NCBI GenBank assembly: GCA_016790435.1
Contig: JAEUPE010000038.1
Location: 61,932-125,931 of the forward strand
Reading direction: 5' to 3'
Length of the DNA: 64,000 bases
DNA from: Rubrivivax sp.
GTDB taxonomy: Bacteria > Pseudomonadota > Gammaproteobacteria > Burkholderiales > Burkholderiaceae_C
Position numbers and translations under genes: made by a program. Every line of letters starts with the position of its first letter. Within the stretch, counting starts at the first letter, position 1. The notes below the pieces were generated by a model that worked only from the letters and a program-made list of their open reading frames with translations, was not told the origin of the DNA and ran no database searches. Positions 8,057-26,552 of this stretch are shown piece by piece.

Positions 8057-9700
8057 TCAGCGTCGCGGTGCGGTGGCGCTGGCGGCCGGTTCGAGGACGG
8101 CGGCGATTTGGTCCAGGTGCGCAGCGACAAACTGCTGCAGTCGCTCCGACCCCTGCCCATCCTCGGAAACTGGCGTGTAGAACATGAGCACGGCGCTGTC
8201 GTCGCCGCGGCCCGCGAGCCGCTGCAATGCCAGCCAGAGCATCGCCTGGGCGTCGCTCGCGACATAGCGGCCGGCGACGCGGTAGACGCGCCACACGAGC
8301 AAACGCTGGGTCGGGTTCAACTTCGGGTCCGCCGGCGTACGCAGTTGCGTGGCGTGCAAGTCGACGGCCCCGCCAGCTGCGAGAGCAGCGACGCGCGCCG
8401 CCGGATGGGCCAATGCCAACCATGTCATCGAGCCCTCCTCGACCAGGACGTTGGTCGAGGTGATCATCTTGCGGTCGTAGCCTTGGTCGCGGTACAGGCC
8501 CACCCAGACGCCGACGGCATCGCTGTCGCTGCCCCCGGACCGCCGGTATTGCGCGGCAGCGAAGGCGGCTGAATGGCGATAGGCGGGCAGCCAGCGGGTG
8601 ATGGGCTGATCGATGGCACTCCACGAAGGCGCGCTCGACCCGCCGGCGGTCAGCAGCCGAGCGGGCAGTTCCAGCGCCGGTGGAATGGTCGACACCGCGG
8701 CAACGCCCTCACCGTCGATTCGATCGTGCAAGCCCTGCGTGGCCGCGACAGTGAGGCCCACGGCCGCGGCCATCAGCCACGGGCCCGGGCGACGCGCCGC
8801 GTTGCCCGCCGACGCGGCCGCAGCGGCGGCTTCGGCGGCGGCATCGGCGGCAGGCGCGGCGTCGACGAAGCGGGCGCCGATCATGAACATCAGGAGGATC
8901 ACGACGCCGAAGAAGATCCAGCCGTAGACGAGGTGATCGGCGCCGGCGGCGAGCTTGTTGCTCGACAGGTGTCCGAGCATCACGATCATGTAGGCGCGCA
9001 GCCAGTTGGCGACGACCGGGACGGCGATGGCCACCGCCACGAAGGCCAGCCGGCGCTTGAGGGAGTGGAAGTTGAGGTACGCGAACAGCGTGCCGACCAT
9101 CACCGAGGCGATGAGGTAGCGCACGCCGCTGCAGGCGGCCACCACCGACCAGTTGCCCGAGGGAATGACGAACTGCAGCCCCTCGCGGTACACCGGGATG
9201 CCCGACAGGCGCAACGCGGCGACCGTGAAATCGGCTGTGCCCTCCATCATCGGCTCGATCAGGAACTCGCCCACCGGGACGCTGAAGAAGAGGAAGAGCA
9301 GCGGGAAGGCGATGACTCGCGCGAACCGCGTGCCGAGCACGGCCGGCACGGCGCTGACGATCATCGCCACCAGCGCGGTCTGCGCCACCGCATGCACGCC
9401 GGCCAATTGCCCGAGCAGCCACACCAGGCAGCAGGCCGCGAGCGGCAGCAGCCACGGCGCGGACGGGGCGATCGCGACGCGGGCCAGCTCGGCCCGCTTG
9501 CGCCACATGAGCGCCAGGGCGATGGGTGGCACGAGGAAGGCGTGGGCGAACGTGTCGGAACGCGACCAGATGGACACCATGGCCGTGCCGGTTTCGCGGA
9601 ACAGCCAGAGCAACGCGGCAAGCGCGAGCAGCAGAGGCAGCATCTGCTGCCAAGCCGGTGCCGGGCCCTGCGCCGGGAGCTTGAGCGCGGCCATGCTCAT
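8057..9700 (-). CDS. xrtA: Exosortase A fused to EpsI domain
   Basis: A membrane cysteine protease/transpeptidase that recognises PEP-CTERM tails and attaches or processes the secreted proteins at the inner membrane. Residues 1 to about 275 form a multi-pass exosortase core with the catalytic triad Cys190 (VVAACSGVR), Arg235 (NWLRAYM) and His256 (ADHLVYGW). After an Ala-rich linker (about 280-310) and another hydrophobic segment comes a periplasmic EpsI domain, containing IDQPITRWLP and VGLYRDQGYDRKMI. At 547 residues the length equals exosortase plus EpsI. It sits between femAB-like and dehydrogenase genes. Expected clients in this window are the PEP-CTERM proteins at 18627 and 32899. Confidence 0.95.
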   Translation of the reverse strand: MSMAALKLPAQGPAPAWQQMLPLLLALAALLWLFRETGTAMVSIWSRSDTFAHAFLVPPIALALMWRKRAELARVAIAPSAPWLLPLAACCLVWLLGQLAGVHAVAQTALVAMIVSAVPAVLGTRFARVIAFPLLFLFFSVPVGEFLIEPMMEGTADFTVAALRLSGIPVYREGLQFVIPSGNWSVVAACSGVRYLIASVMVGTLFAYLNFHSLKRRLAFVAVAIAVPVVANWLRAYMIVMLGHLSSNKLAAGADHLVYGWIFFGVVILLMFMIGARFVDAAPAADAAAEAAAAAASAGNAARRPGPWLMAAAVGLTVAATQGLHDRIDGEGVAAVSTIPPALELPARLLTAGGSSAPSWSAIDQPITRWLPAYRHSAAFAAAQYRRSGGSDSDAVGVWVGLYRDQGYDRKMITSTNVLVEEGSMTWLALAHPAARVAALAAGGAVDLHATQLRTPADPKLNPTQRLLVWRVYRVAGRYVASDAQAMLWLALQRLAGRGDDSAVLMFYTPVSEDGQGSERLQQFVAAHLDQIAAVLEPAASATAPRR

Positions 9701-15908: not shown

Positions 15909-17552
15909 TCAGGCCCCATACCGGTTCATGACGATCATCGCGATCAGACCGGCGACGAAAATGCCCACCAGCCCCCCGGAGGCGGTGACGAAGCGGAACA
16001 TCGAAGCGCGCTCGCGGCGACGGTCGGCGTCGGTGATGAGCGCCGACACGACGCCGAGCAGCGGCAGACCGGTCTTCTGCCGCAACTCGTCGGCGTGACC
16101 GAAGGTGGGCCGCACCTGCACCGCCGCGAAGGCGAAGGCGACGCCGAGCGCCAACGAGGCGAACAGCACCGCCGGCAACAGGAGCAGCCGATTGGGCGAC
16201 ACCGGGCGCGGCGCCACACGCGGCGGGTCGATGAGCTTGAACTCGGCGACGCCCGTGGCCACGTCGAGCTCGCCGGACATGACGGCAGCCTGCCGGCGCG
16301 ACACGAGGTCCTCGTAGTTCTTCTTGATAATGGCGTAGTCGCGGTTGAGTTGCGCCGACTCCGCTTCGATCTGCGGCGCGGTCTTCAATTGCTGTCGAAC
16401 CTGCGCCATGCGGCTGGAGTACTCGTCCACGCGCGCCTGCATCGCCGCCACCTGCACCTCGGCGGTGGCCAACATGCGGCTCATCTCCTGCACCGCCAGG
16501 CTCTCGCCGGGGGTGGTTGCCGTGCGCGGCGCGGCAGCGGCCGCTTGCGCGGCGGCCACCGCGGCCGCCTGCGCACGCCGCTGCAGCTCGGCCACCTCGC
16601 GCCGCTTCTGCTCCTCGAGTTCGTTGATCAGACGGCGGGCGTTCTGCACGTCCGGGTGCTGATCGGTATAGCGCTGCAGCAGGCCATCGAGACTGCGGCG
16701 CTGGTCCTGGATGCGGGCGTCGATCTCGGGCGTGGCGAAATTGCCCACCGGCGCGCCCGAAGGCAGCAGGACCCCTGGCGCAGGAGCGAGATTGGGCAGC
16801 GCGGAGGTGCTGGGCGACTGACCACGCGCCTCGGCCAACTGGCGCTTGGCCGCATCGCGCGAGCGCTCGGCCTCGCGCAACTGCAGGCGTGCCGCTTCCA
16901 GCTGGGTGCTGATCTCGGCCATGCGGCTGGCCACGTCCTTGCCGTCGGCACCCTGGCGGTCGATGTTGCGCAGCCGGAACTCCTTCATGCGCGTCTCGGC
17001 CTCTTCGAGGCGGGCCTCGAAGATCTTGATCTGCTCGGTCAGGAAGGACTTCGCCGAGTCGGTGTCCTTGCGACTCGCGCCCATGCCGGACTCGACGAAG
17101 ATCGAGACCATCGACTGGATCACCCGCTTGGCCTTCTCGGGCTCGGGGTCGCGATAGGACATCAGGTAGAGATTTGCGCCACCGGCGGTCCGCATCGCAA
17201 TGCCTTTTTGCAGCCGCTCGATCAGGGCCTCCTGGTCGGCCTTGGACTGATTCTTCAGGTCCAAGTCCGCCATGCGGACGAGCTTCTCGAGGTTCGGCCG
17301 GCTGATCAGCGTGCGGCTGAGCATGCTGATCTGCTGCTCGACGTTGGGCTGAACCGCCAGACCGCTCATCAATGGCTTGAGGATCGTGTCGGTGTCGACA
17401 TAGATCCGCGCCGAGGCCTCAAACTGGTCAGGGATGCGCCACACCACCACCACGCCCACGACCGCCACCACCCAGGCGACGATCAGCCCCGGCCAGCGGA
17501 ACTTCCACATCCCGCGCAGCGTATTGAGGACCTGGTTCAGGAGTTCTTGCAT
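15909..17552 (-). CDS. XrtA-system polysaccharide chain-length determinant (Wzz/PCP family)
   Basis: A 547-residue inner-membrane co-polymerase. An N-terminal transmembrane helix (about 22-39) is followed by a long periplasmic coiled-coil region rich in Gln, Arg and Ala (about 170-430), a Pro-rich pre-membrane segment (PPRVAPRPVSPN) and a C-terminal helix, then a second hydrophobic segment at the very end. It matches the XrtA-specific chain-length family. It lies between the export lipoprotein and the tyrosine kinase, the usual Wza-Wzc-like order with the kinase as a separate protein. It probably sets polymer length and opens the export channel. Confidence 0.94.
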   Translation of the reverse strand: MQELLNQVLNTLRGMWKFRWPGLIVAWVVAVVGVVVVWRIPDQFEASARIYVDTDTILKPLMSGLAVQPNVEQQISMLSRTLISRPNLEKLVRMADLDLKNQSKADQEALIERLQKGIAMRTAGGANLYLMSYRDPEPEKAKRVIQSMVSIFVESGMGASRKDTDSAKSFLTEQIKIFEARLEEAETRMKEFRLRNIDRQGADGKDVASRMAEISTQLEAARLQLREAERSRDAAKRQLAEARGQSPSTSALPNLAPAPGVLLPSGAPVGNFATPEIDARIQDQRRSLDGLLQRYTDQHPDVQNARRLINELEEQKRREVAELQRRAQAAAVAAAQAAAAAPRTATTPGESLAVQEMSRMLATAEVQVAAMQARVDEYSSRMAQVRQQLKTAPQIEAESAQLNRDYAIIKKNYEDLVSRRQAAVMSGELDVATGVAEFKLIDPPRVAPRPVSPNRLLLLPAVLFASLALGVAFAFAAVQVRPTFGHADELRQKTGLPLLGVVSALITDADRRRERASMFRFVTASGGLVGIFVAGLIAMIVMNRYGA

Positions 17553-17605
17553 GGTGTATTCAGCCCGGCGAGACGGCGGCTACGAGCCGCACTGGCACGG
17601 CGCAA

Positions 17606-18277
17606 TCAGAAGAAGCTCTGCGGAATGATGAGGATGTCGCCGGGCCGCATCTCGACATTGGCCGAGACGTCGCCGCGACGCACGAGGTCCTTCAGGCGCA
17701 CAGCGTATTGCTTGTTGCCCTCGGACGTGCGCACCAGCGTGGCGCCGTTGCCATCGGCGAAGTCGGTAAGCCCTCCCACGGCGATCATCACGTCGAGAAC
17801 GGTCATTTTCTGGCGGAACGGCAGGAACTGCGGCTTGGCGGCTTCGCCGACAACCCGGATCTGCTCGCTGAACGGACCCACGAAAGTGGTCACGATGACC
17901 GTGACCACCGGATCGCGCACGAACGTGGCCAGACGCTTCTCGATATCGCGGGCCACCGCGGTGGAGGTCTTGCCCTGGGCCACGAGTTCGTCTACCAGGG
18001 GCGCCGAGATCTTCCCATCCGGACGCACGGGCACCGAAAGGGAGAGCTCGGGATTGCGCCAGACGATGATGCTCAGCGTGTCGCCAGCACCAATGACGTA
18101 GCTGTAGTCGGCGGCGCTGGCCGCGGCCGGTGCGGGCGGCAAGCCACCCATCGTGCCGCACGCCGCGGACAGGATCGCAGCGAGAACCGCCAGTGAACCT
18201 GCACCGAACGAACGCCAGGACGGCAGGCCGCCGCGGCGCCGGTGTTGCGGCATCGAAGTGGTGTTGAGCTTGGACAA
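17606..18277 (-). CDS. XrtA/PEP-CTERM polysaccharide export lipoprotein (Wza-like)
   Basis: A 223-residue outer-membrane export protein. A basic n-region (QHRRR) and hydrophobic core lead to the lipobox LSAAC, so Cys40 should be lipidated. The poly-export domain follows (YVIGAGDTLSIIVWRNPELS) and then an SLBB-like segment (IRVVGEAAKPQFLPF). The protein is short compared with E. coli Wza, as is normal for this family. It is the first gene of the minus-strand exopolysaccharide block, 53 bp upstream of the chain-length gene, so the main operon promoter should lie in 18278-18626. Confidence 0.94.
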   Translation of the reverse strand: MSKLNTTSMPQHRRRGGLPSWRSFGAGSLAVLAAILSAACGTMGGLPPAPAAASAADYSYVIGAGDTLSIIVWRNPELSLSVPVRPDGKISAPLVDELVAQGKTSTAVARDIEKRLATFVRDPVVTVIVTTFVGPFSEQIRVVGEAAKPQFLPFRQKMTVLDVMIAVGGLTDFADGNGATLVRTSEGNKQYAVRLKDLVRRGDVSANVEMRPGDILIIPQSFF

Positions 18278-18626
18278 TGCAGACTCTCCTCAGGCCAGTG
18301 TTCTTCGGCGGCACCAAGGCCGGCCGTGCCCAGAGAACACGGCCAGTCGCCACCGACGCAAGCAGGGCCAGGGCTCGCGGAAAGCGCAACCCCACAGCGC
18401 CGTAACGCATTGTGCGGCGCGGCGCGACCTTACAACGATGATCGCATGGGGACAAGCCGCCCCACGCGGCACTCCGCCGCTGGCCACCTGGGAGCGCGCA
18501 GATTTCACGCCCCCTGTTTCTCGTGCCACGCTGTGGCGTGAGAAAGGGCAAGGGCGGCCGAAGCCGCCCTTGCGCTGCAACTTCGAACCGCCCGACGCCG
18601 CAGTGGCCTGCGCGCGGACCGGCCGC
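18278..18626. other. 349-bp intergenic region upstream of the export operon
   Basis: This gap separates the PEP-CTERM gene from the export lipoprotein, both on the minus strand. It contains the PEP-CTERM gene's terminator hairpin (separate entry) and must contain the promoter of the exopolysaccharide operon. I searched for the sigma-54 pattern GG-N10-GC with TTGC and found no good match, nor a convincing -35/-10 pair. No coding potential was recognised. Confidence 0.6.
18548..18573 (-). terminator. Intrinsic terminator after PEP-CTERM gene
   Basis: On the minus strand an 11-bp perfect stem (GCAAGGGCGGC/GCCGCCCTTGC) closes a TTCG tetraloop and is followed by CCTTTCTC. It lies about 53 bp past the stop codon of the gene ending at 18627 and should uncouple it from the export operon. 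Confidence 0.75.
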
Positions 18627-19286
18627 TCAGGCCTTGCGTCGGCGAACCACACCCAAGCCGACCAGACCGAGGCCCATCAGCGCCAGGCTCGTGGGTTCGG
18701 GGATGAGATTGATGTCCACGCTCGCGCCCTGAACGTAGGGGCGGTAGCTGACGCCGGTGTAGTCGAAGAGGGCCGTGATCGTGGCCGAGTAGGTGCCGCT
18801 CAGCTGCGCCGTGCCGGACCCGGCGCCGTTGTACACGTTGGTGCCGAAGATCATTTCGCTCATGCCGAAGGCGTTGTTGCCATCATCAACGTATCCGGCC
18901 CAGCTGATCTGCGAGCCCATCGGCCCGGCACCGCCGCCGTCGAGATAGAAGGGCATCGGATCGGTCGCGGCGTCGAGGTCGGTGTAAGTCAAGCTGATCC
19001 GCAGGGCGCCACTGTTGGACCGGCCATTGACACCGGCCGTGAGGTGCATGAGCAGCGGATTGTCGTTGCCGGCGCCGACCGCCGTCGTGAACGTCCAGGC
19101 GCCGAATGACCCCGCATAGGCCACGCCGCCCACCGAAGCATCTTGATCCGCCGCATTGCCATCGGCAACGGTGAGGGTGTTCGTGCCATCGGTGATCTGG
19201 ACGATCAGCGCGGCTTGCGACACCGCAGGTGCGAGCCCGAGCACTGCAACTGCAGCGGTGGGGGCGAGAAACTTGTTCAGGTTCAA
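18627..19286 (-). CDS. PEP-CTERM sorting-domain protein (small, secreted)
   Basis: A 219-residue exported protein. A Sec signal peptide runs to about SQA (residue 24), then a Gly/Ala/Thr/Asn-rich beta-type body, and the C-terminal sorting tail starts PEPTSLALMG, continues as a hydrophobic helix and ends VRRRKA. This tail is the exosortase A recognition signal. The body has no family I recognise. The start is read as TTG at 19286 because GGAG sits 7 nt upstream and the next residues (NLNKFLAP) begin a normal signal peptide; no ATG is well placed. A sigma-54 promoter lies about 50 bp upstream, so PrsR/RpoN control is likely. Confidence 0.85.
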   Translation of the reverse strand: MNLNKFLAPTAAVAVLGLAPAVSQAALIVQITDGTNTLTVADGNAADQDASVGGVAYAGSFGAWTFTTAVGAGNDNPLLMHLTAGVNGRSNSGALRISLTYTDLDAATDPMPFYLDGGGAGPMGSQISWAGYVDDGNNAFGMSEMIFGTNVYNGAGSGTAQLSGTYSATITALFDYTGVSYRPYVQGASVDINLIPEPTSLALMGLGLVGLGVVRRRKA

Positions 19287-19332
19287 GGTAGAACTCCAGC
19301 GACGAATTTCGAATCGGACGTGCCCTCTCATT

Positions 19333-19348
19333 AGCAACCCCAATGCCA
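19333..19348 (-). promoter_or_regulatory. Sigma-54 (-24/-12) promoter of PEP-CTERM gene
   Basis: On the minus strand TGGCATTGGGGTTGCT matches TGGCAY-N5-TTGCW at every defined position. Transcription should begin about 12 bp downstream, giving a leader of roughly 35 nt before the TTG start at 19286. The locus encodes its own sigma-54 activator, PrsR (26549-27934). Confidence 0.8.
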
Positions 19349-19374
19349 TCCTTTGCAGACAAGGACTTAGCCCG

Positions 19375-19436
19375 GCCGCGTGAACAATTTGCAACCGTGT
19401 TGTCAGGTCTGCCGACAGAGACTTTGTTCACGCGGC
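19375..19436. promoter_or_regulatory. Inverted repeat, candidate activator-binding site (PrsR box)
   Basis: Perfect 13-bp arms GCCGCGTGAACAA (19375-19387) and TTGTTCACGCGGC (19424-19436) are separated by 36 nt. A third, 11/13 copy in the second orientation lies at 19453-19465. The arms start about 27 bp upstream of the -24 element, where enhancer-binding proteins usually bind. PrsR as the binder is inferred. Confidence 0.6.
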
Positions 19437-19544
19437 GAGGCCCGCTGCGCACTCGTTCACGCGACGCGCATTGCGTCGGCGAATGCACCGCCGCTCCCAC
19501 GAATGCGGGGTCTATCTGGTGATCCCGCTTCCCGACCCCAACCC

Positions 19545-19550
19545 TACAAT
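19545..19550 (+). promoter_or_regulatory. Possible sigma-70 -10 element (TACAAT)
   Basis: TACAAT lies 33 nt before the ATG at 19583. No good -35 hexamer is found 16-18 bp upstream, so the promoter would be weak or activator-dependent. Confidence 0.35.
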
Positions 19551-19582
19551 CGGCTGACCCACTGAGTGACCAGGGATCGCAC

Positions 19583-20224
19583 ATGAACGACAAGACAACG
19601 ACCTCGACCGGCGCGTCCAGCCCGCAGATCCTCCAGAGTGCTCCGAAAGCGAAGGATGCGCGCATCCGCCTGGATCGGCGGGCGTTGCTGCGCGCTGGCG
19701 CCGGCGCCTCACCGGTGCTTCTCACGCTGGCCAGCAACCCGGTGGCAGCGGCGAACAGTTGTGTCGTGGCGTCGTCCTTCGTTTCTGTCGCCACCTTCAA
19801 GAGTCGCAATCCGACGGTCACCTCGGTCAACTGCGCCACACGCACGGCCGAGGACTGGCGCAATGCCTGCATGGGCAACGCGCAACTGGCTTGCGCCAAG
19901 CCGCTCGTGTCTGCCACCTTCGGCGCCACGCCCTCGAGCTACAGCAGCAAGACGCTGAGCCAGGTGCTTTGCGACTCCTCGGGCATCTCGACCAGTGGCG
20001 AGCTGGGCGTGCTGCAGCACCTGATCGCGCTCAACCTGAGCGTCTCGCAGGGCTTCATGCGCATGTCAGCGGGCAACGTCAGCCCGGCCTACCTCGGCTC
20101 CATCTGGCGCAACTTCAAGAACAACGGCAACCAGTACAAGCTGCCCTCGTCGACGATCACTTGGAGTTCGGCGCAACTCGTCACTTGGTTGCGCTACCAG
20201 CTCAACTACTCCATGCCGATCTGA
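19583..20224 (+). CDS. Unknown exported protein with Tat-like signal, precedes PqqD/HprK cassette
   Basis: A 213-residue protein of unknown function. The N-terminus is hydrophilic, then DRRALLRAG (31-39) with a twin arginine, a weak hydrophobic stretch and a likely cleavage near VAAAN (about 58). The mature part has five cysteines (60, 84, 96, 104, 130), is Ser/Thr-rich, and ends with an aromatic-containing segment (TWLRYQLNYSMPI). No enzyme motif is visible. AGGGA 8 nt upstream supports the ATG start. It is 108 bp ahead of the PqqD-like gene on the same strand, so it may be the substrate or partner of that cassette; this is inference only. Confidence 0.75.
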   Translation: MNDKTTTSTGASSPQILQSAPKAKDARIRLDRRALLRAGAGASPVLLTLASNPVAAANSCVVASSFVSVATFKSRNPTVTSVNCATRTAEDWRNACMGNAQLACAKPLVSATFGATPSSYSSKTLSQVLCDSSGISTSGELGVLQHLIALNLSVSQGFMRMSAGNVSPAYLGSIWRNFKNNGNQYKLPSSTITWSSAQLVTWLRYQLNYSMPI

Positions 20225-20332
20225 CGGCGTGGCCCCTCCGGGGCCCGCACTGCGATGCGGGCGTGATTGGACCGGCGGCGCGGAAGTCGCCCGCGCCAGG
20301 GCTCGTGTGGGAGCCGCTTTCAATTTCCAGGC

Positions 20333-20641
20333 ATGGACACTTACCTCGCCGCCGACGCCTCGATTCGGCATTGGGAAGGCGAATCCACCGCCGTGGCGCG
20401 GCTGCCGGCCGCGGGCACCACGCACCTGATCGGCGCAGAAGCGCTGGCCGTGGTCCAGGCGGTGGCGCAAGGCGACCGAGGCCTCACGCCACGCGAGATT
20501 GCGCACGCGCTGGGCCTCCTCGTCGACGGCGACGTGGAGGTCGAGACCGGCTTGCAGCGCATCATCGATGGTTTGGTCCAATCCGGCCTGCTGCGCCGAA
20601 CAAACGACGATGCCGAGCCTGGGCGAGAAGGACCCCGATGA
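20333..20641 (+). CDS. PqqD-like peptide chaperone, HPr-rel-A system
   Basis: A 102-residue PqqD-family protein of the type paired with HprK-related kinase A. PqqD-like domains (RiPP recognition elements) bind leader peptides and present them to modifying enzymes. Features consistent with the fold are the IGAEALAVVQAV helix, a LTPREIAHAL helix, and the acidic DGDVEVETGLQRIIDGLVQSG segment that forms the C-terminal winged-helix part. The ATG at 20333 is where the recognisable protein begins. Its 3' end overlaps the kinase gene by 32 bp, so the products are made together. Confidence 0.82.
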   Translation: MDTYLAADASIRHWEGESTAVARLPAAGTTHLIGAEALAVVQAVAQGDRGLTPREIAHALGLLVDGDVEVETGLQRIIDGLVQSGLLRRTNDDAEPGREGPR

Positions 20642-21542
20642 GATCCGTGGCGCGCTAACGAAAGCTGGCGCGGAGGGCGGCCTGTGCTTACGGATGGGGC
20701 CTTATGTGGCCCGCATCCGGTCCCCGCTCATCGACGTGGCAGCGGCAGTGACAGCCCTCTATCGTCATCACACTGTCGTTGATGGTTCCGGCTTCGTCGA
20801 CTTCGACGTCGCCGTCCGACGCCCCAATGGCTTCCGTGCGCTATGGCGCCCGCAGGTGGTCTTCGAGTTCGAGGGAGAGGAACCTTTCAATCCATTGCCG
20901 GGCGACCAGGGGTTCCCGCTCCTCGAGTGGGGTCTGAATTGGTGTGTTTACGGCCTGTGCCATCAGCACCTGACCTTGCACTCGGCCGTTCTCGAAAGAA
21001 GCGGCCGTGCCCTGCTCCTGCCGGCACCGTCCGGCTCGGGCAAGAGCACGCTGTGCGCCGCTCTCGTCTTCAGCGGTTGGCGCCTGCTGTCGGACGAACT
21101 CGCGCTCATCACGCCGGACGCGGGCGAACTGCTGCCGTTGCCTCGCCCGGTCAGCCTGAAGAACGCCTCGATCGAGGTCATTCAGCGCTTCGCACCGCAA
21201 GTCGAGTTCGGCTCGAGAGTGGAGGAAACGGCCAAGGGGGTGGTGGCCCACTTCCCACCGCCGGCCGGCGCCGTGCGGCAGAGCGACGAGCGCGCCCTAC
21301 CCGGTTGGGTGGTCTTCCCCAAGTACACCTCAGGCGCGCCCGCGCGCCTCGTGCCGATGGAGCGCTCGCGCACGTTCATGCAGTTGATCGAGAACGCATT
21401 CAACTACGACATCTTCGGCCGCGACGGGTTCGACCTGCTCTGCTCGGTGGTCGACCGCAGCGACTGCTACACGTTCGAGTACAGCGATCTCGCCGAGGCC
21501 GTGGCGCTGTTCGATCGGCTTTCCCGAGGTGAGCGTGCCTGA
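20610..21542 (+). CDS. HprK-related kinase A
   Basis: A 310-residue P-loop kinase related to HPr kinase/phosphorylase but lacking its N-terminal domain. Walker A is APSGSGKST (139-147) and an HprK-like SDE (161-163) supplies the Walker B acid. EWGLNWCVYGLCHQHLTLHSA (about 106-126) is strongly characteristic of the HPr-rel-A kinase family, as is the FVDFDV segment. No HPr protein is encoded nearby, so the substrate is likely different; related HprK-like enzymes phosphorylate lasso peptides. The ATG at 20610 has a weak ribosome site, consistent with coupling to the upstream gene. Confidence 0.85.
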   Translation: MPSLGEKDPDEIRGALTKAGAEGGLCLRMGPYVARIRSPLIDVAAAVTALYRHHTVVDGSGFVDFDVAVRRPNGFRALWRPQVVFEFEGEEPFNPLPGDQGFPLLEWGLNWCVYGLCHQHLTLHSAVLERSGRALLLPAPSGSGKSTLCAALVFSGWRLLSDELALITPDAGELLPLPRPVSLKNASIEVIQRFAPQVEFGSRVEETAKGVVAHFPPPAGAVRQSDERALPGWVVFPKYTSGAPARLVPMERSRTFMQLIENAFNYDIFGRDGFDLLCSVVDRSDCYTFEYSDLAEAVALFDRLSRGERA

Positions 21543-22659
21543 ACCCCGGGACCTCGTCGTCGAGGCGCTCACGCGCCCGGCGACGCACTTCGAGCGTTGG
21601 TCTGCACGGGACTGGACGCACTTTTTCCAGCAGGCGCGCAACGCAGGATTGTTGGGCCGCGCGGGCGCGCGGCTCCTGGGCCTGTGGCCTTCGGGTCGGG
21701 TTGCGCCGTGGCCTGCCAACCTAGAAGGGCACTTCGCCGCAGCGACACGCCTCATGGAAGCGCAGCGTGCCGAGGTGCAGCGAGAGCTTGGCTACATCAC
21801 ACGCGCTCTGGCCGGGCTCGGTGCGCCTGTGGTGGTCCTCAAGGGCGCAGCCTACCTGGCGGCCGGCCTGCCCCCCGGCGCTTCGCGGGTGTTCTCCGAT
21901 GTTGACATCCTCGTGCCCAAGGCGGCGATTCAGGAAGCCGAATCGCGTCTGATGCTGCAGGGATGGGTGGGCACCCACGATAACGCCTACGACCAGCGCT
22001 ACTACCGCGAGTGGATGCACGAGTTGCCGCCGATGCAGCACCTGCACCGCGGCACGACGCTGGACCTGCACCACAACATCCTGCCCTCCACGGCACGCTT
22101 CAAGCCCGATGGCCGCCACTTGGTCGAACGTGCCGAGCCGCTGCCCGGCTGGCCGGGCCTGCACGTGCTAGCCCCGACCGACATGGTGCTGCATTGCATG
22201 ACGCACCTGTTCATGAACGAGGAGACCAGCCACTCGCTGCGCGACCTGTCCGACCTTGACCTGCTGCTGAGGCACTTCGGCAGCAATGGTGCCTTCTGGC
22301 CGCTGCTGGTGGAGCGGGCAACGCTCCTCGACCTCCGGCGGCCAATGCACTACGCCATACGCCACGTGGTGCAGGTGCTCGACACGCCGGTGCCCGCAGA
22401 CGTGGCGGCGCGGATCGGGGCCTACGCGCCGGCGGCACCGATGGGTGTGCTGATGGACGCCATCTGGCGTCGCGCTCTGCGTTGCCCACATCCGAGCGCC
22501 GCGCTCACCGGCACCTCCGCTGCCCGCTTCGCGCTCTACGTGCGCGGGCACTGGCTACGCATGCCGCCTGGGATGCTTGCGAGGCACCTGACCATCAAGG
22601 CCCTGAGGTTGCACGGGCGCACGACTGGCGAACCTGTAACAACCCCCACCCAGGGTTGA
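21529..22659 (+). CDS. Nucleotidyltransferase-family protein of HPr-rel-A system
   Basis: A 376-residue protein of the nucleotidyltransferase superfamily that accompanies HprK-like kinases and PqqD-like proteins. VVVLKGAAYL (101-110) and FSDVDILV (122-129, with Asp124 and Asp126) form the metal/nucleotide site. A long helical C-terminal half contains HCMTHLFMNEE and SDLDLLLRH. The start is GTG at 21529, overlapping the kinase stop by 14 bp. The likely reaction is nucleotidyl transfer to a peptide or to a phosphorylated product; the substrate is unknown. Confidence 0.85.
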   Translation: MSVPEPRDLVVEALTRPATHFERWSARDWTHFFQQARNAGLLGRAGARLLGLWPSGRVAPWPANLEGHFAAATRLMEAQRAEVQRELGYITRALAGLGAPVVVLKGAAYLAAGLPPGASRVFSDVDILVPKAAIQEAESRLMLQGWVGTHDNAYDQRYYREWMHELPPMQHLHRGTTLDLHHNILPSTARFKPDGRHLVERAEPLPGWPGLHVLAPTDMVLHCMTHLFMNEETSHSLRDLSDLDLLLRHFGSNGAFWPLLVERATLLDLRRPMHYAIRHVVQVLDTPVPADVAARIGAYAPAAPMGVLMDAIWRRALRCPHPSAALTGTSAARFALYVRGHWLRMPPGMLARHLTIKALRLHGRTTGEPVTTPTQG

Positions 22660-22916
22660 GGTCCACTGCGCAACTTATGACGGGCGCAGCACAGCAGTCG
22701 AATGGCTGCGCACCGTGGAGCAAGTCACCGAACCATCCGCACTGGGAAGCGCCCCCTTATCGCGGGGGTTGCCGCCCCTCGTCGCCGCTTCTTACATTGG
22801 CCTTGTGGCCTCCTCCGGAGAGCTCGGTAACAGGTGGTGAAGTCGTAACGGCATTGCCGGTTGCCCAAGCAGCGCGGACCTCAAGTCGATGGCGCGCCGT
22901 CCGAACAGCAAGATCC

Positions 22917-24299
22917 ATGATCAGAATCTTCCAACACTACGTACACCGCGCATCCCTGCGAAGCATGTTCTTCGACTTGGCAGTGGCGCTGCTGCTTGCC
23001 TTGGGTGCCGTGACGTACCAAGTGGGCGGCATCGGCCAGGCGGTGCCACTCGCCGGCGGGCAGTTGATGTCGTTCGCGGCGGCGCTCTTCGTCGTCAACA
23101 GCGCATCCGGTCTGTATGAGCCGCAGAACTCGCTGTCGCTGTCGCGGTCTTGCGCTCGAGCCATCTTCGTCCTGCTCATCGTTCTGCCGCTCGCCTATGC
23201 CATCTTCGGCCTGCTGCCCACCCACCTGAGCAGCCGCGAGGCGGTGCAGTTCTCCGTGATGGCCGGCGTGTCTGCACTTGTGCTGCGCCGGGTCTACGTG
23301 TCACAGCGTTCCGCGGTACCCCGTGGCCGCACTCGCATCCTCATCTTCGGTGCCGGCCCGGCCGCCCAAGTGGTAGGCAATACGCTGCGGTCTGCCGATC
23401 CCAATGCGGTGATCGTCGGATACATGCCCGGCCCGAACGAGACCGAGGCCGCGGTACCGGCGGCCGAACTCCTCACCAGCCGCGGTTCGCTCACCGAAAC
23501 GGCGATCAGCCTCGGTGTCGACGAGATCGTCGTCGCGCTGACCGAGCGCCGCTCGGGCAGCATGCCGCTTCGCCAGTTGCTTGACTGCAAGCTCTCCGGC
23601 GTGAAGGTCTACGATCTCAACACGCACTTCGAGAAGACGCTCGGCCAGATCAGAGTCGACTACCTCAATGCCAGCTGGCTGATCTTCGGCGACGGATTCA
23701 ACCAGGGCGCCTTCCGCACTTTCGTCAAGCGTATCTTCGACATTGTCTGCGCGACGCTGCTGTTCCTGGTCTCGGCTCCGATCATGGCGGTCGCGGCGCT
23801 GCTGATCCGCCTCGAGAGCGCTGGCCCGATCTTCTACCGCCAGGAACGTGTCGGCCTCAATGGCCGCACCTTCCTCGTCACGAAGTTCCGCAGCATGCGC
23901 ACCGACGCCGAGAAGGATGGCAAGCCCCGCTGGGCTGCAGCCAACGACGACCGCATCACACGCGTCGGTCATGTCATCCGGCGCCTGCGCATCGACGAGT
24001 TGCCGCAGATCTTCAACGTGCTCAAGGGCGACATGAGCCTGGTGGGCCCTCGCCCGGAGCGCCCCTATTTCGTTGAACAACTGACGCAGAAGATCCCCTT
24101 CTACGCCGTGCGCCACAGCGTCAAGCCGGGCGTCACGGGCTGGGCCCAGGTCCGCTACGCCTACGGCGCCACGGTCGAGGACTCGCAGGAGAAGCTGCAG
24201 TTCGACCTGTACTACGTGAAGAACCACACGCTGTTCCTGGACCTCGTGGTCCTGCTCGAGACCGTGGGCGTCGTGCTCACCGGCAAGGGCGCTCGCTGA
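22917..24299 (+). CDS. XrtA/PEP-CTERM undecaprenyl-phosphate sugar phosphotransferase (WcaJ/EpsB-like)
   Basis: A 460-residue polyisoprenyl-phosphate hexose-1-phosphate transferase that starts the exopolysaccharide repeat on undecaprenyl phosphate. Several N-terminal transmembrane helices (about 18-120) precede a CoA-binding-like domain with GAGPAAQVVGN. A re-entrant helix near FDIVCATLLFLVSAPIM leads to the catalytic C-terminal domain (FYRQERVGLNGRTF, KFRSMRTDAE, RIDELPQIFNVLKGDMSLVGPRPE). The ATG at 22917 follows a 257-bp gap that should contain a promoter. Long upstream in-frame codons overlap the previous gene and were discarded. Confidence 0.93.
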   Translation: MIRIFQHYVHRASLRSMFFDLAVALLLALGAVTYQVGGIGQAVPLAGGQLMSFAAALFVVNSASGLYEPQNSLSLSRSCARAIFVLLIVLPLAYAIFGLLPTHLSSREAVQFSVMAGVSALVLRRVYVSQRSAVPRGRTRILIFGAGPAAQVVGNTLRSADPNAVIVGYMPGPNETEAAVPAAELLTSRGSLTETAISLGVDEIVVALTERRSGSMPLRQLLDCKLSGVKVYDLNTHFEKTLGQIRVDYLNASWLIFGDGFNQGAFRTFVKRIFDIVCATLLFLVSAPIMAVAALLIRLESAGPIFYRQERVGLNGRTFLVTKFRSMRTDAEKDGKPRWAAANDDRITRVGHVIRRLRIDELPQIFNVLKGDMSLVGPRPERPYFVEQLTQKIPFYAVRHSVKPGVTGWAQVRYAYGATVEDSQEKLQFDLYYVKNHTLFLDLVVLLETVGVVLTGKGAR

Positions 24300-24310
24300 G
24301 CGAAGGCGGC

Positions 24311-24329
24311 CCGGCGCCGATGGCGCCGG
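24311..24329 (+). terminator. GC hairpin after sugar transferase gene
   Basis: Perfect 8-bp stem CCGGCGCC/GGCGCCGG with a 3-nt loop, 11 nt after the stop codon. There is no U-tract, so it may only stabilise the 3' end. Confidence 0.4.
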
Positions 24330-24452
24330 CCGAGAGCGCCGCCAACAGCGTGAACTCGACCGCGTCGCCTGTCACGGCGGCGCGAGTCCGTTGTCGCACC
24401 CAGCCACCACAATGGTCCGTAGAAGCGGACAACAACCGAGGTGGTTCTCGCG

Positions 24453-26552
24453 GTGGATGACATGGCAGTGGCCGGCTACGCGCTCAGCGCCGCCGTCCAT
24501 CTGATCTTCCTGGCCTTCCTGGCCTGGACAGGGCGCATGCCGCGTGGCTCGCCCCTCAGTTCGAGCCTTTTCGTCGGTGCGCTGCTCGCCAGCGCGCTCT
24601 GGGCTGCCGCACAGGCGCTCGGGCAGGCCGGTCGCGACACGGCCTGGCTGGCCGCCGCGACGCTGCTCGATCTCGCGCGATACGGGATGTGGCTGACCTT
24701 CCTGTACACGCTCGTCGGCGCCATGCGCGAGGGCGACTCGCCACGCGTCCCGTCGGCCCTGCGCTGGATTCTCTTCGCCACGCTGGCCATTGCGGTCCTG
24801 CTGCAGGGCCTGCGAGTCGCCTGGGGAGCGGCGGACCACCCGGGCTCGCGCTTCGGACTGCTCGTGCTGCTGGCGCTGCCACTGCTCGGCTTGCTGCTGC
24901 TCGAGCAGCTCTTCCGCAACCTGGGAGAGGATCCACGCTGGTTCGCCAAGCCGGTGTGCATCGGCTTGGCGATCGTCTTCGCCTTCGACATCTACATGGT
25001 CTCGCAGGCCTTCCTCTTCGGCCATGCCGATGAGGACACGCTGGGCGCCCGCGGCCCGGTGCACATGCTGGCGGTTCCTTTCCTGATGATCGCCGCGCGT
25101 CGGCGAGCCGACTGGATCGTACGGCTACAGGTGTCACGTACCGCAGTCTTTCACTCGGCCACCCTGGTGCTGGCCGGCCTGTACCTGCTCTTCGTCTCCA
25201 GCCTCGGCTACTACGTCCGCTTCTTCGGCGGCACCTGGGGCCGCGGGTTGCAGCTGAGCCTGCTTTTCGCGGCCCTGGCCGTGCTGGTGGCGTTCGCGGT
25301 GTCCGGGTCGCTACGCTCGTGGCTGCGCGTCTTCGTGGGCAAGCACTTCTTCAGCTATCGCTTCGATTACCGCGAAGAGTGGCTGCGCTTCACGGCCATG
25401 CTGTCCACCCGCGGCTCGCCGCACGAGATCGGCCGGCTCGTCGTGCGCGGCCTGGCCGACATGGTCGAGTGCCCTGCGGGCAGCCTCTGGACACGCGCCG
25501 ACCCCGAGGGCCCGTTCCAGCAGATGGCGCGCTGGAACGCCCCCCAAATCGACGGACAGGAACCCGCGGACAGCGCCTTCAGCGCCTTCCTGCGCCGAAC
25601 GGGCTGGGTGATCGACCTCGATCAGCTGCGCTCGTCGCCGCGCCTGTATGACGGCCTCGTCCTCCCGACCTGGCTGCTCGGCACGCAGCCGCCCTGGCTC
25701 GTGGTGCCCCTGCTCGCGGGCGACGAACTGCTGGGCTTCGTGCTGCTGGCGCACCCGCGCACGCGCGTGGACGTCAACTGGGAGGTGCTGGACCTCCTGA
25801 AGACCGCCAGTCGGCAGGCCGCCGGCCATCTCGCGCAGATGCAGGCCACCGAGGCCCTGCTGGAGGCGCGCAAGTTCGATGCCTTCAATCGAATGTCGGC
25901 CTTCGTCGTGCACGACCTGAAGAACATCGTCACCCAGCTGTCGTTGATGCTCAAGAACGCGGAACGCCTGCACGACAACCGCGAGTTCCAGCAGGACATG
26001 CTGCTCACCGTGGAAAGCTCGCTCGCCAAGATGCGGCGCCTGATGCTGCAATTGCGCGAAGGCAGTCCTGCAGCCGGCATCAGCGTGGGCGTGGAGCTGG
26101 GTCCCATCGTGCAGCGGTTGCAGGCACTGGCCAAGGGACGCGGGCGAGCCCTCGAGGTCACGCAACCGGAGCGCGTGGCGACGCGGGGCCATGAAGAGCG
26201 CCTGGAACGCGTGCTCGGGCACCTCGTGACGAATGCGCTCGATGCCACCGCGGCCGACGGGCAGGTCTGGATGACCGTGCAACGAGAGAGCGGCCAGGTT
26301 CGCATCGAAGTGGGTGACACCGGAGTGGGGATGACCGAAGAATTCGTGCAGACGCGCCTGTTCAAGCCGTTCAGCAGCACCAAGGGCAGCGGCATGGGCG
26401 TGGGCACCTTCGAGAGCGCGCAATACGTGCGCGAGCTGGGCGGCAGCATCCATGTCGCCAGCCGCCCCTCCGAGGGGACTCAGATCACCGTGCTGCTGCC
26501 ATTGTTCGAGTCGCAGCACGACTCCGACCTCATGCCGCCGGACTTCCGATGA
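24453..26552 (+). CDS. prsK: PEP-CTERM system sensor histidine kinase PrsK
   Basis: A membrane histidine kinase of about 699 residues that pairs with PrsR. The N-terminal half holds eight or more transmembrane segments. A GAF-like domain (about 320-460) follows, then the HisKA/HATPase module: VVHDLKNIVTQLS (phospho-acceptor His), NALDATAADG (N box), GDTGVGM and GSGMGVGTFE (G boxes). The start is uncertain: GTG 24453 has GAGGTGG 8 nt upstream and was chosen over GTG 24441 and ATG 24462. Its stop overlaps prsR by 4 bp. In this family the kinase governs exosortase-dependent proteins through sigma-54. Confidence 0.93.
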   Translation: MDDMAVAGYALSAAVHLIFLAFLAWTGRMPRGSPLSSSLFVGALLASALWAAAQALGQAGRDTAWLAAATLLDLARYGMWLTFLYTLVGAMREGDSPRVPSALRWILFATLAIAVLLQGLRVAWGAADHPGSRFGLLVLLALPLLGLLLLEQLFRNLGEDPRWFAKPVCIGLAIVFAFDIYMVSQAFLFGHADEDTLGARGPVHMLAVPFLMIAARRRADWIVRLQVSRTAVFHSATLVLAGLYLLFVSSLGYYVRFFGGTWGRGLQLSLLFAALAVLVAFAVSGSLRSWLRVFVGKHFFSYRFDYREEWLRFTAMLSTRGSPHEIGRLVVRGLADMVECPAGSLWTRADPEGPFQQMARWNAPQIDGQEPADSAFSAFLRRTGWVIDLDQLRSSPRLYDGLVLPTWLLGTQPPWLVVPLLAGDELLGFVLLAHPRTRVDVNWEVLDLLKTASRQAAGHLAQMQATEALLEARKFDAFNRMSAFVVHDLKNIVTQLSLMLKNAERLHDNREFQQDMLLTVESSLAKMRRLMLQLREGSPAAGISVGVELGPIVQRLQALAKGRGRALEVTQPERVATRGHEERLERVLGHLVTNALDATAADGQVWMTVQRESGQVRIEVGDTGVGMTEEFVQTRLFKPFSSTKGSGMGVGTFESAQYVRELGGSIHVASRPSEGTQITVLLPLFESQHDSDLMPPDFR

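Follow-up and report, generated by a model that had tools for sequence, protein, structure and literature searches.

The question raised by the locus described here is which molecule is modified by an HprK-type kinase that is encoded beside a PqqD-like protein, a nucleotidyltransferase and an exported protein. The four genes lie in a stretch of 64,000 nucleotides from a Rubrivivax sp. genome (GenBank assembly GCA_016790435.1, contig JAEUPE010000038.1, positions 61,932 to 125,931 of the forward strand), and this whole stretch is referred to below as the window. A preliminary description of the window had pointed to four consecutive plus-strand genes, the last three of them overlapping, with Walker A (PSGSGKST), SDE and DVD motifs in the enzymes and five cysteines in an exported protein of 213 residues. 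All of these are present and the four-gene observation is confirmed. What is new is that the exported protein is a near-constant fourth part of the cassette that NCBIfam calls HPr-rel-A; the enzymes were already named or have parallels elsewhere. The features are listed below, where Tat stands for twin-arginine translocation and RRE for the recognition element of ribosomally synthesized and post-translationally modified peptides (RiPPs).

19583..20224, plus strand: exported Cys-containing protein, the proposed substrate (213 residues)
19676..19753, plus strand: Tat-like leader segment RRALLRAGAGASPVLLTLASNPVAAA (codons of residues 32-57)
19772..19786, plus strand: proposed modification zone directly after the leader, Ser64 to Ser68 (from Ser conservation and enrichment)
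20333..20641, plus strand: PqqD-like protein, predicted discrete RRE fold (102 residues; TIGR04353 match below the cut-off, structure model)
20610..21542, plus strand: HprK-related kinase A (310 residues, in-frame ATG start; TIGR04352)
21529..22659, plus strand: nucleotidyltransferase NTP_transf_5 (376 residues, GTG start; PF14907)

The PqqD-like and kinase genes overlap at 20610-20641 and the kinase and nucleotidyltransferase genes at 21529-21542. In the alignment, the kinase ATG at 20610 is one codon ahead of the start of most relatives.

Co-occurrence of the exported gene with the kinase

The preliminary description had proposed counting how often the family of the gene at 19583 occurs with the kinase. 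A gene with the same twin-arginine (RR) leader, and thus a relative at least in the leader, adjoins the kinase at 176 of 184 loci, or at 169 of 177 distinct kinases once seven repeat loci are collapsed. The loci come from three sets. The order sample comprised 300 Burkholderiales genomes, 50 of which have a kinase over the TIGR04352 cut-off, and all 50 loci were taken, the window included. A scan of GTDB genomes gave at least 333 confirmed kinase relatives, of which the best 80 were used (7 of these are repeats of order-set loci). The phylum sample comprised 398 Pseudomonadota genomes, 61 with a kinase over the cut-off; 6 were already in hand and 54 loci were added, one genome (G466) being left out because its kinase is in two pieces at contig edges. 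Also left out were L080 and L081, which have no kinase match, and L082, in which the kinase is below the cut-off.

In the order set, an iterated profile found an RR-leader gene by the kinase at 49 of the 50 loci with E < 0.001; the match in L063 was borderline (0.001) and the gene was then visible by eye. With profiles from the order set, the exported gene was found close to the kinase in 79 of the best 80 of at least 333 GTDB relatives (E no higher than 9e-12). The runner-up match at each locus had an E of 0.2 or more, the one exception being L092, whose runner-up overlaps the true match. The locus without a match, L111, belongs to a Nitrosospira metagenome-assembled genome (MAG); it has the kinase and the nucleotidyltransferase, and no exported or PqqD-like gene was detected in its fetched flanks.

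A profile of the leader alone was then scored over 185 loci (the 184 over the cut-off and L082). It was trained on 164 leaders of the three sets. The 174 precursors that it matched automatically gave 167 distinct leaders, and 164 were left after the removal of L093, L098 and L110, whose leaders were misplaced. Two exported genes, that of L176 on the opposite strand and that of L210 in a long open reading frame, were added by hand to the 174 automatic matches. Scores of the near gene have a median of 36.9 bits, with a 5th percentile of 15.2 and a minimum of 7.8. The top score anywhere else in each locus served as a control; its 95th percentile is 6.6, and its highest value, 34.5, fits the opposite-strand exported gene of L176. 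The scored leader genes lie upstream of the kinase in 168 cases and downstream in 6.

In the reverse search, a profile built from 17 exported proteins of group 1 matched 46 of the 300 order genomes at E <= 0.001, 41 with the kinase and 5 without. The five kinase-negative matches are partial and lie inside longer frames of 334 to 1301 residues, and no kinase-negative genome of the order sample yielded a full-length member of group 1. Nine kinase genomes missed by this profile have exported proteins outside its coverage.

The preliminary description had also allowed for an undetected short peptide as the substrate. The distance from the exported gene to the first matched kinase residue has a median of 358 nucleotides (range 268-1163; measured in 75 of the 80 GTDB loci), so there is little room for such a peptide and we consider it unlikely in that gap.

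The four-gene unit recurs across Pseudomonadota, where nearly all named matches of the GTDB scan fall. Grouping the genes of the 80 named loci (with annotation covering the groups above 32 loci) showed that the groups present in at least 52 loci are the four cassette families and minus-strand open reading frames taken as antisense shadows, and nothing else. This recurrence, together with ratios of nonsynonymous to synonymous substitution rates (dN/dS) of 0.20 and 0.24 for the exported gene against two Rubrivivax MAGs (L083 and L084), indicates that the four genes are together by more than chance.

Leader, cargo and serines of the exported protein

The RR leader covers approximately residues 32-57 of the exported protein. 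Ser64 and Ser68 lie in the mature part, in which a helical domain is predicted at residues ~81-206. Among 44 group-1 sequences, no variation is seen at R32, R33 and S64, and conservation reaches at least 90% at S51, C60, S68, C84, W92 and L152. The five cysteines are residues 60, 84, 96, 104 and 130. Leader residues 31-57 are 100% and 93% identical to those of L083 and L084, compared with 83% and 73% for the mature part of the exported protein, 87% and 80.5% for the kinase and 70% and 50% for the PqqD-like protein. The two arginines were a selection criterion for the leader rows and are not independent evidence. Compared with the Tat consensus, the neighbors of RR are Tat-like: position +3 is L or F in 127 of 164 leaders, and the most frequent residues are S at -1 (59) and K at +5 (52). 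TatC is found in the host genome (221 bits, cut-off 132.7), which gives weak support because the Tat machinery is common in bacteria.

What follows the leader is variable. The cargo has a median length of 150 residues (range 20-244) and mature parts differ by lineage. The exported protein of the window matched no NCBIfam family at E <= 1, and no Pfam or NCBIfam family was common to more than one of 17 members examined or to more than two of 44 members. The AlphaFold model has a mean predicted local distance difference test score (pLDDT) of 75, with a helical part at residues ~81-210 modelled at ~89 and an N-terminal part of low confidence; a Foldseek search of the PDB returned 12 matches, the best at E 6.6, and therefore no fold match.

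The segment directly after the leader is rich in serine. In 164 precursors, Ser makes up 19.2% (472/2460) of the 15 residues that follow the leader and 8.6% of distal positions, whereas Thr is not enriched (8.0% versus 8.6%). At least one Ser is found in this zone in 159 of the 164 precursors versus 72% of distal 15-mers, and at least two in 129 versus 34%.

A side observation concerns the group-1 cargo. The motif SPGYWKNH or TPGYWKNH was seen in modules of long frames (>1000 residues), L241:3303-3809 in a kinase-negative genome and L243:801-1301 in a kinase-positive one; part of this cargo is therefore also a module of large proteins.

PqqD-like protein, kinase and nucleotidyltransferase

The PqqD-like protein of the window is a divergent relative of TIGR04353 (HPr-rel-A system PqqD family peptide chaperone), scoring 22.1 bits, below the cut-off of 35; all 29 of its aligned relatives match this model at E <= 0.01. 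It is modelled with a winged-helix RRE fold. The structure model has a pLDDT of 91, and its best Foldseek match in the PDB is 5v1v, the lasso RRE TbiB1 with leader (probability 1.00, template modelling scores 0.63/0.71, E 2.4e-3), there being no match at E <= 0.001. The first 17 of 912 Foldseek matches are PqqD or peptide-modification enzymes, as judged by title or known identity, and a sequence profile search placed TfuB1 on top (E 0.022).

The kinase matches TIGR04352 with 379 bits (cut-off 200) over positions 2-280 of 280. The preliminary description had called it truncated; it is shorter than HPr kinase, yet it is full length for its own family. Residues H123, K144, D161 and E162 (alignment numbering) are invariant in 22 sequences. 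A review reports a catalytic His-Lys-Asp-Asp set for lasso-peptide kinases (PMC9266682).

The nucleotidyltransferase matches PF14907 (NTP_transf_5) with 174.7 bits (cut-off 31.2) and is the sole PF14907 match in the host genome, which is 80.8% complete. In L190 and L191 the nucleotidyltransferase is present, farther from the kinase. As a separate observation, L189 and L193 have a protein of 566 residues downstream of the kinase and no nucleotidyltransferase was found nearby.

Proposed pathway and alternatives

We propose that the cassette is an RRE-guided pathway that modifies the exported protein, in which the leader is bound, a Ser after the leader is phosphorylated and perhaps further tagged, and the product is exported by Tat. 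We give this reading a probability of about 0.58. The PqqD-like RRE would bind the conserved RR leader in the cytoplasm, as its modelled fold and genomic linkage suggest. The HprK-type kinase would then phosphorylate Ser in the short segment after the leader, here Ser64 and/or Ser68. A sugar or a nucleotide may next be added to the phosphoserine by the NTP_transf_5 enzyme, which is the weakest step of the proposal. The leader would finally serve as a Tat signal and be cleaved, leaving the protein outside the cell with the tag near its new N-terminus. This proposal builds on an operon that recurs, a leader that is conserved, an RRE fold in the structure prediction, conserved active-site residues in the kinase, the Ser enrichment and TatC; from these observations we infer the modification chemistry and the export route. 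Modification of the exported protein, by phosphorylation and perhaps further tagging, in connection with XrtA-type polysaccharide loci is the most likely role of the cassette. NCBIfam names the kinase and a "peptide chaperone" and we found no client model there; the neighbor with the RR leader is a candidate client. If the proposal is right, chemistry guided by an RRE would not be limited to short peptides and would reach exported proteins across Pseudomonadota. HprK-type kinases would then have a link to polysaccharide loci in Gram-negative as well as Gram-positive bacteria.

Several observations weigh against this proposal. Eight kinase loci have no detected exported gene (in 7 of these no PqqD-like gene was detected either, and a contig end truncates at least L197). 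The PqqD-like gene is undetected at 17 of the 184 loci, and the exported gene is present at 10 of the 17; at one of these ten, L153, a PqqD-like frame that the search did not detect is visible by eye. It is also the least conserved of the genes compared, with dN/dS of 0.37 and 0.65, which is odd for the reader of a conserved leader. The preliminary description had taken the PqqD-like protein as a leader binder, and while the modelled fold agrees with this, the motif of lasso and linear polyphosphorylated peptide (LPP) systems, [YW]xxPx[LVIFA], is found in only 2 of 164 leaders. The second catalytic Asp of the lasso kinases is Glu in the cassette kinase. The nucleotidyltransferase is undetected within 3 kb at 20 of the 184 loci, in part because the flanks are short, and in the LPP system the nucleoside triphosphate (NTP) transferase LppN was inactive in the published host, where its removal changed nothing (PMC13381572). 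The Ser control is weak: 91 secreted-like open reading frames from 41 loci, membrane proteins included, have 6.9% Ser near and 6.2% far. The evidence for a signal peptide is slight, and neither the Tat profile nor the cleavage site backs it firmly: TIGR01409 matches only 2 of 44 members (best E 0.11), and a strict AxA is found in 63 of 164 leaders versus 27% of shuffled windows. A loose AxA-like pattern fits 161 of 164 leaders, yet it also fits 94% of shuffled windows, and we therefore dropped it as support for a signal peptide.

Among the alternatives, the one that survives best keeps the exported protein as the substrate and moves the modification elsewhere, either near the C-terminus or to many residues of the folded domain. 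The paeninodin kinase acts on the C-terminal Ser (PMC9266682), and many group-1 proteins finish in short Thr/Ser tails such as TTMPL or STMS. Against this, a conserved phosphorylatable C-terminus was sought by eye over 49 listed family members and the C-termini were not conserved, and the Ser enrichment sits at the leader-proximal end, the C-terminal end having been judged by eye and without statistics. We regard a site elsewhere in the protein as unlikely.

Rather unlikely as well is that the cassette modifies a small molecule, a polysaccharide or an enzyme of exopolysaccharide synthesis, with the exported protein as a linked but unmodified effector. The surroundings of the cassette speak for such a target, since XrtA is found in 47 of the 50 kinase genomes of the order and two gammaproteobacterial-type loci (L190 and L191) adjoin genes for an XrtA-type glycosyltransferase or amidotransferase. 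However, a conserved leader encoded next to an RRE-fold protein suggests that the leader is bound, the exported and RRE genes tend to be missing together in the loci without an exported gene (the 10 loci with only the former detected notwithstanding), and no exosortase was found in 29 of the 61 kinase genomes of the phylum sample.

A more far-reaching version of the proposal, which we consider speculative and improbable, is a RiPP-type pathway scaled to whole proteins, in which the RRE would read a Tat leader, the kinase and a nucleotidyltransferase-like glycosyltransferase would place a phospho-sugar on a cleavage-adjacent Ser, Tat would export the completed protein and this phosphodiester would then join it to the XrtA-type exopolysaccharide. 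The leader would serve as a transferable address label for extracellular domains that can be exchanged.

A regulatory module acting on HPr or another protein of the phosphotransferase system is highly improbable, as the weak HPr kinase resemblance (PF07475 14.6 bits; PDB 1jb1, E 0.0008) is set against a score of 16.4 bits, far below the HprK cut-off of 240, and against the recurring partnership with an RRE-type protein and an exported one, the whole genome not having been searched for HPr.

Comparison with described systems

The closest described system is that of the LPP RiPPs of Bacillota (PMC13381572). The LPP clusters combine an RRE, an HprK-like kinase and an NTP transferase with precursors that have conserved N-termini and variable C-termini; the kinase LppK phosphorylates Ser3 of the core and does not act on the S3T variant; and the clusters often lie inside capsule loci and are said to be restricted to Bacillota. 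The cassette shares the trio of RRE, HprK-like kinase and NTP transferase (LppN and PF14907 being paired by description), a conserved leader with variable cargo, a setting in polysaccharide loci and a Ser close after the leader. It differs in that its leader resembles an RR signal and nearly always lacks the YxxP-type RRE-binding motif, its cargo is a whole protein, and nearly all of its named matches are in Pseudomonadota. Moreover, no SpI-like peptidase or MsbA-like ATP-binding cassette transporter was found by best family among the nine genes scanned at window 15909-26549. Because the YxxP motif and the dedicated peptidase and transporter both fail, we do not file the cassette as an LPP system and propose it as a parallel pathway in which the leader doubles as a signal peptide.

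The phosphorylated lasso peptides paeninodin and pseudomycoidin offer a second comparison (PMC9266682). They share the HprK-like kinase and the lasso B1 RRE fold, and in pseudomycoidin the nucleotidyltransferase-like PsmN is linked to hexose addition on phosphoserine. The client of the cassette is a large Cys-containing exported protein and not a short lasso core, and the lasso leader peptidase PF13471 has no match in the host genome within its stated completeness, which disfavors a lasso pathway.

Compared with the NCBIfam HPr-rel-A system by model name and score, the cassette has a full TIGR04352 member as its kinase and a TIGR04353 relative below the cut-off as its PqqD-like protein; the difference is that no library model was found for the exported protein. 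The literature searched, which holds few subscription journals, does not mention the HPr-rel-A names, TIGR04352 or TIGR04353, PF14907, exosortase with PqqD, PEP-CTERM with HPr kinase, or any three of exosortase, HprK, PqqD and nucleotidyltransferase together; among the titles and abstract beginnings listed nothing describes the cassette, and the LPP paper comes nearest. The earlier suggestion of an undescribed system thus holds for the exported protein, a fourth part that is nearly always there, and does not hold for the enzymes, since NCBIfam names the kinase and the chaperone and the LPPs share the trio.

Exosortase and polysaccharide setting

The exosortase locus had been noted in the preliminary description, and XrtA is indeed found at C272:70792-71565 of the genome, corresponding to the minus strand of window 8861-9634. 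The neighbors of the cassette are genes of the XrtA system (TIGR03027, TIGR03007, TIGR03013, TIGR02916). The cassette shares with the PEP-CTERM/XrtA system the same locus and mostly the same genomes; the difference is that the exported protein, which ends in SMPI, has no NCBIfam match to a PEP-CTERM sorting signal at E <= 1. A PEP-CTERM protein (EDSAP-1 match below the cut-off) is encoded at window 18627-19394 on the minus strand, divergent from the exported gene.

The suggested link to exopolysaccharide and exosortase is strong in the order sample, where XrtA over the cut-off is found in the great majority of kinase genomes (numbers above) versus 26 of 250 others. It is looser in the phylum sample, where any exosortase is found in 32 of 61 kinase genomes versus 49 of 337 others, and this weakens a strict requirement for XrtA. 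Neighboring genes were scanned at two loci from exosortase-negative genomes, and at both the cassette adjoins other genes of the system: L190 an XrtA-type glycosyltransferase (TIGR03088, 472 bits, cut-off 409) and L191 the start of an XrtA-type amidotransferase (TIGR03108, 237 bits over 134 residues, a partial match below the cut-off). The tie of the cassette may therefore be less to the sorting enzyme as such than to the XrtA-type polysaccharide locus.

Kinase loci below the cut-off

Twenty-two loci with a kinase below the TIGR04352 cut-off were inspected. In five of these picked by eye (L217, L219, L220, L225 and L227), with kinases of 384-418 residues, a peptide of 61-81 residues with an RR or KR leader is encoded 0-202 nucleotides upstream of the kinase. 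The peptides stop soon past the leader and their tails hold Ser; PqqD_rel_X also matches the kinase of L225, though weakly (15.4 bits, cut-off 35). These loci may represent peptide-sized relatives of the system.

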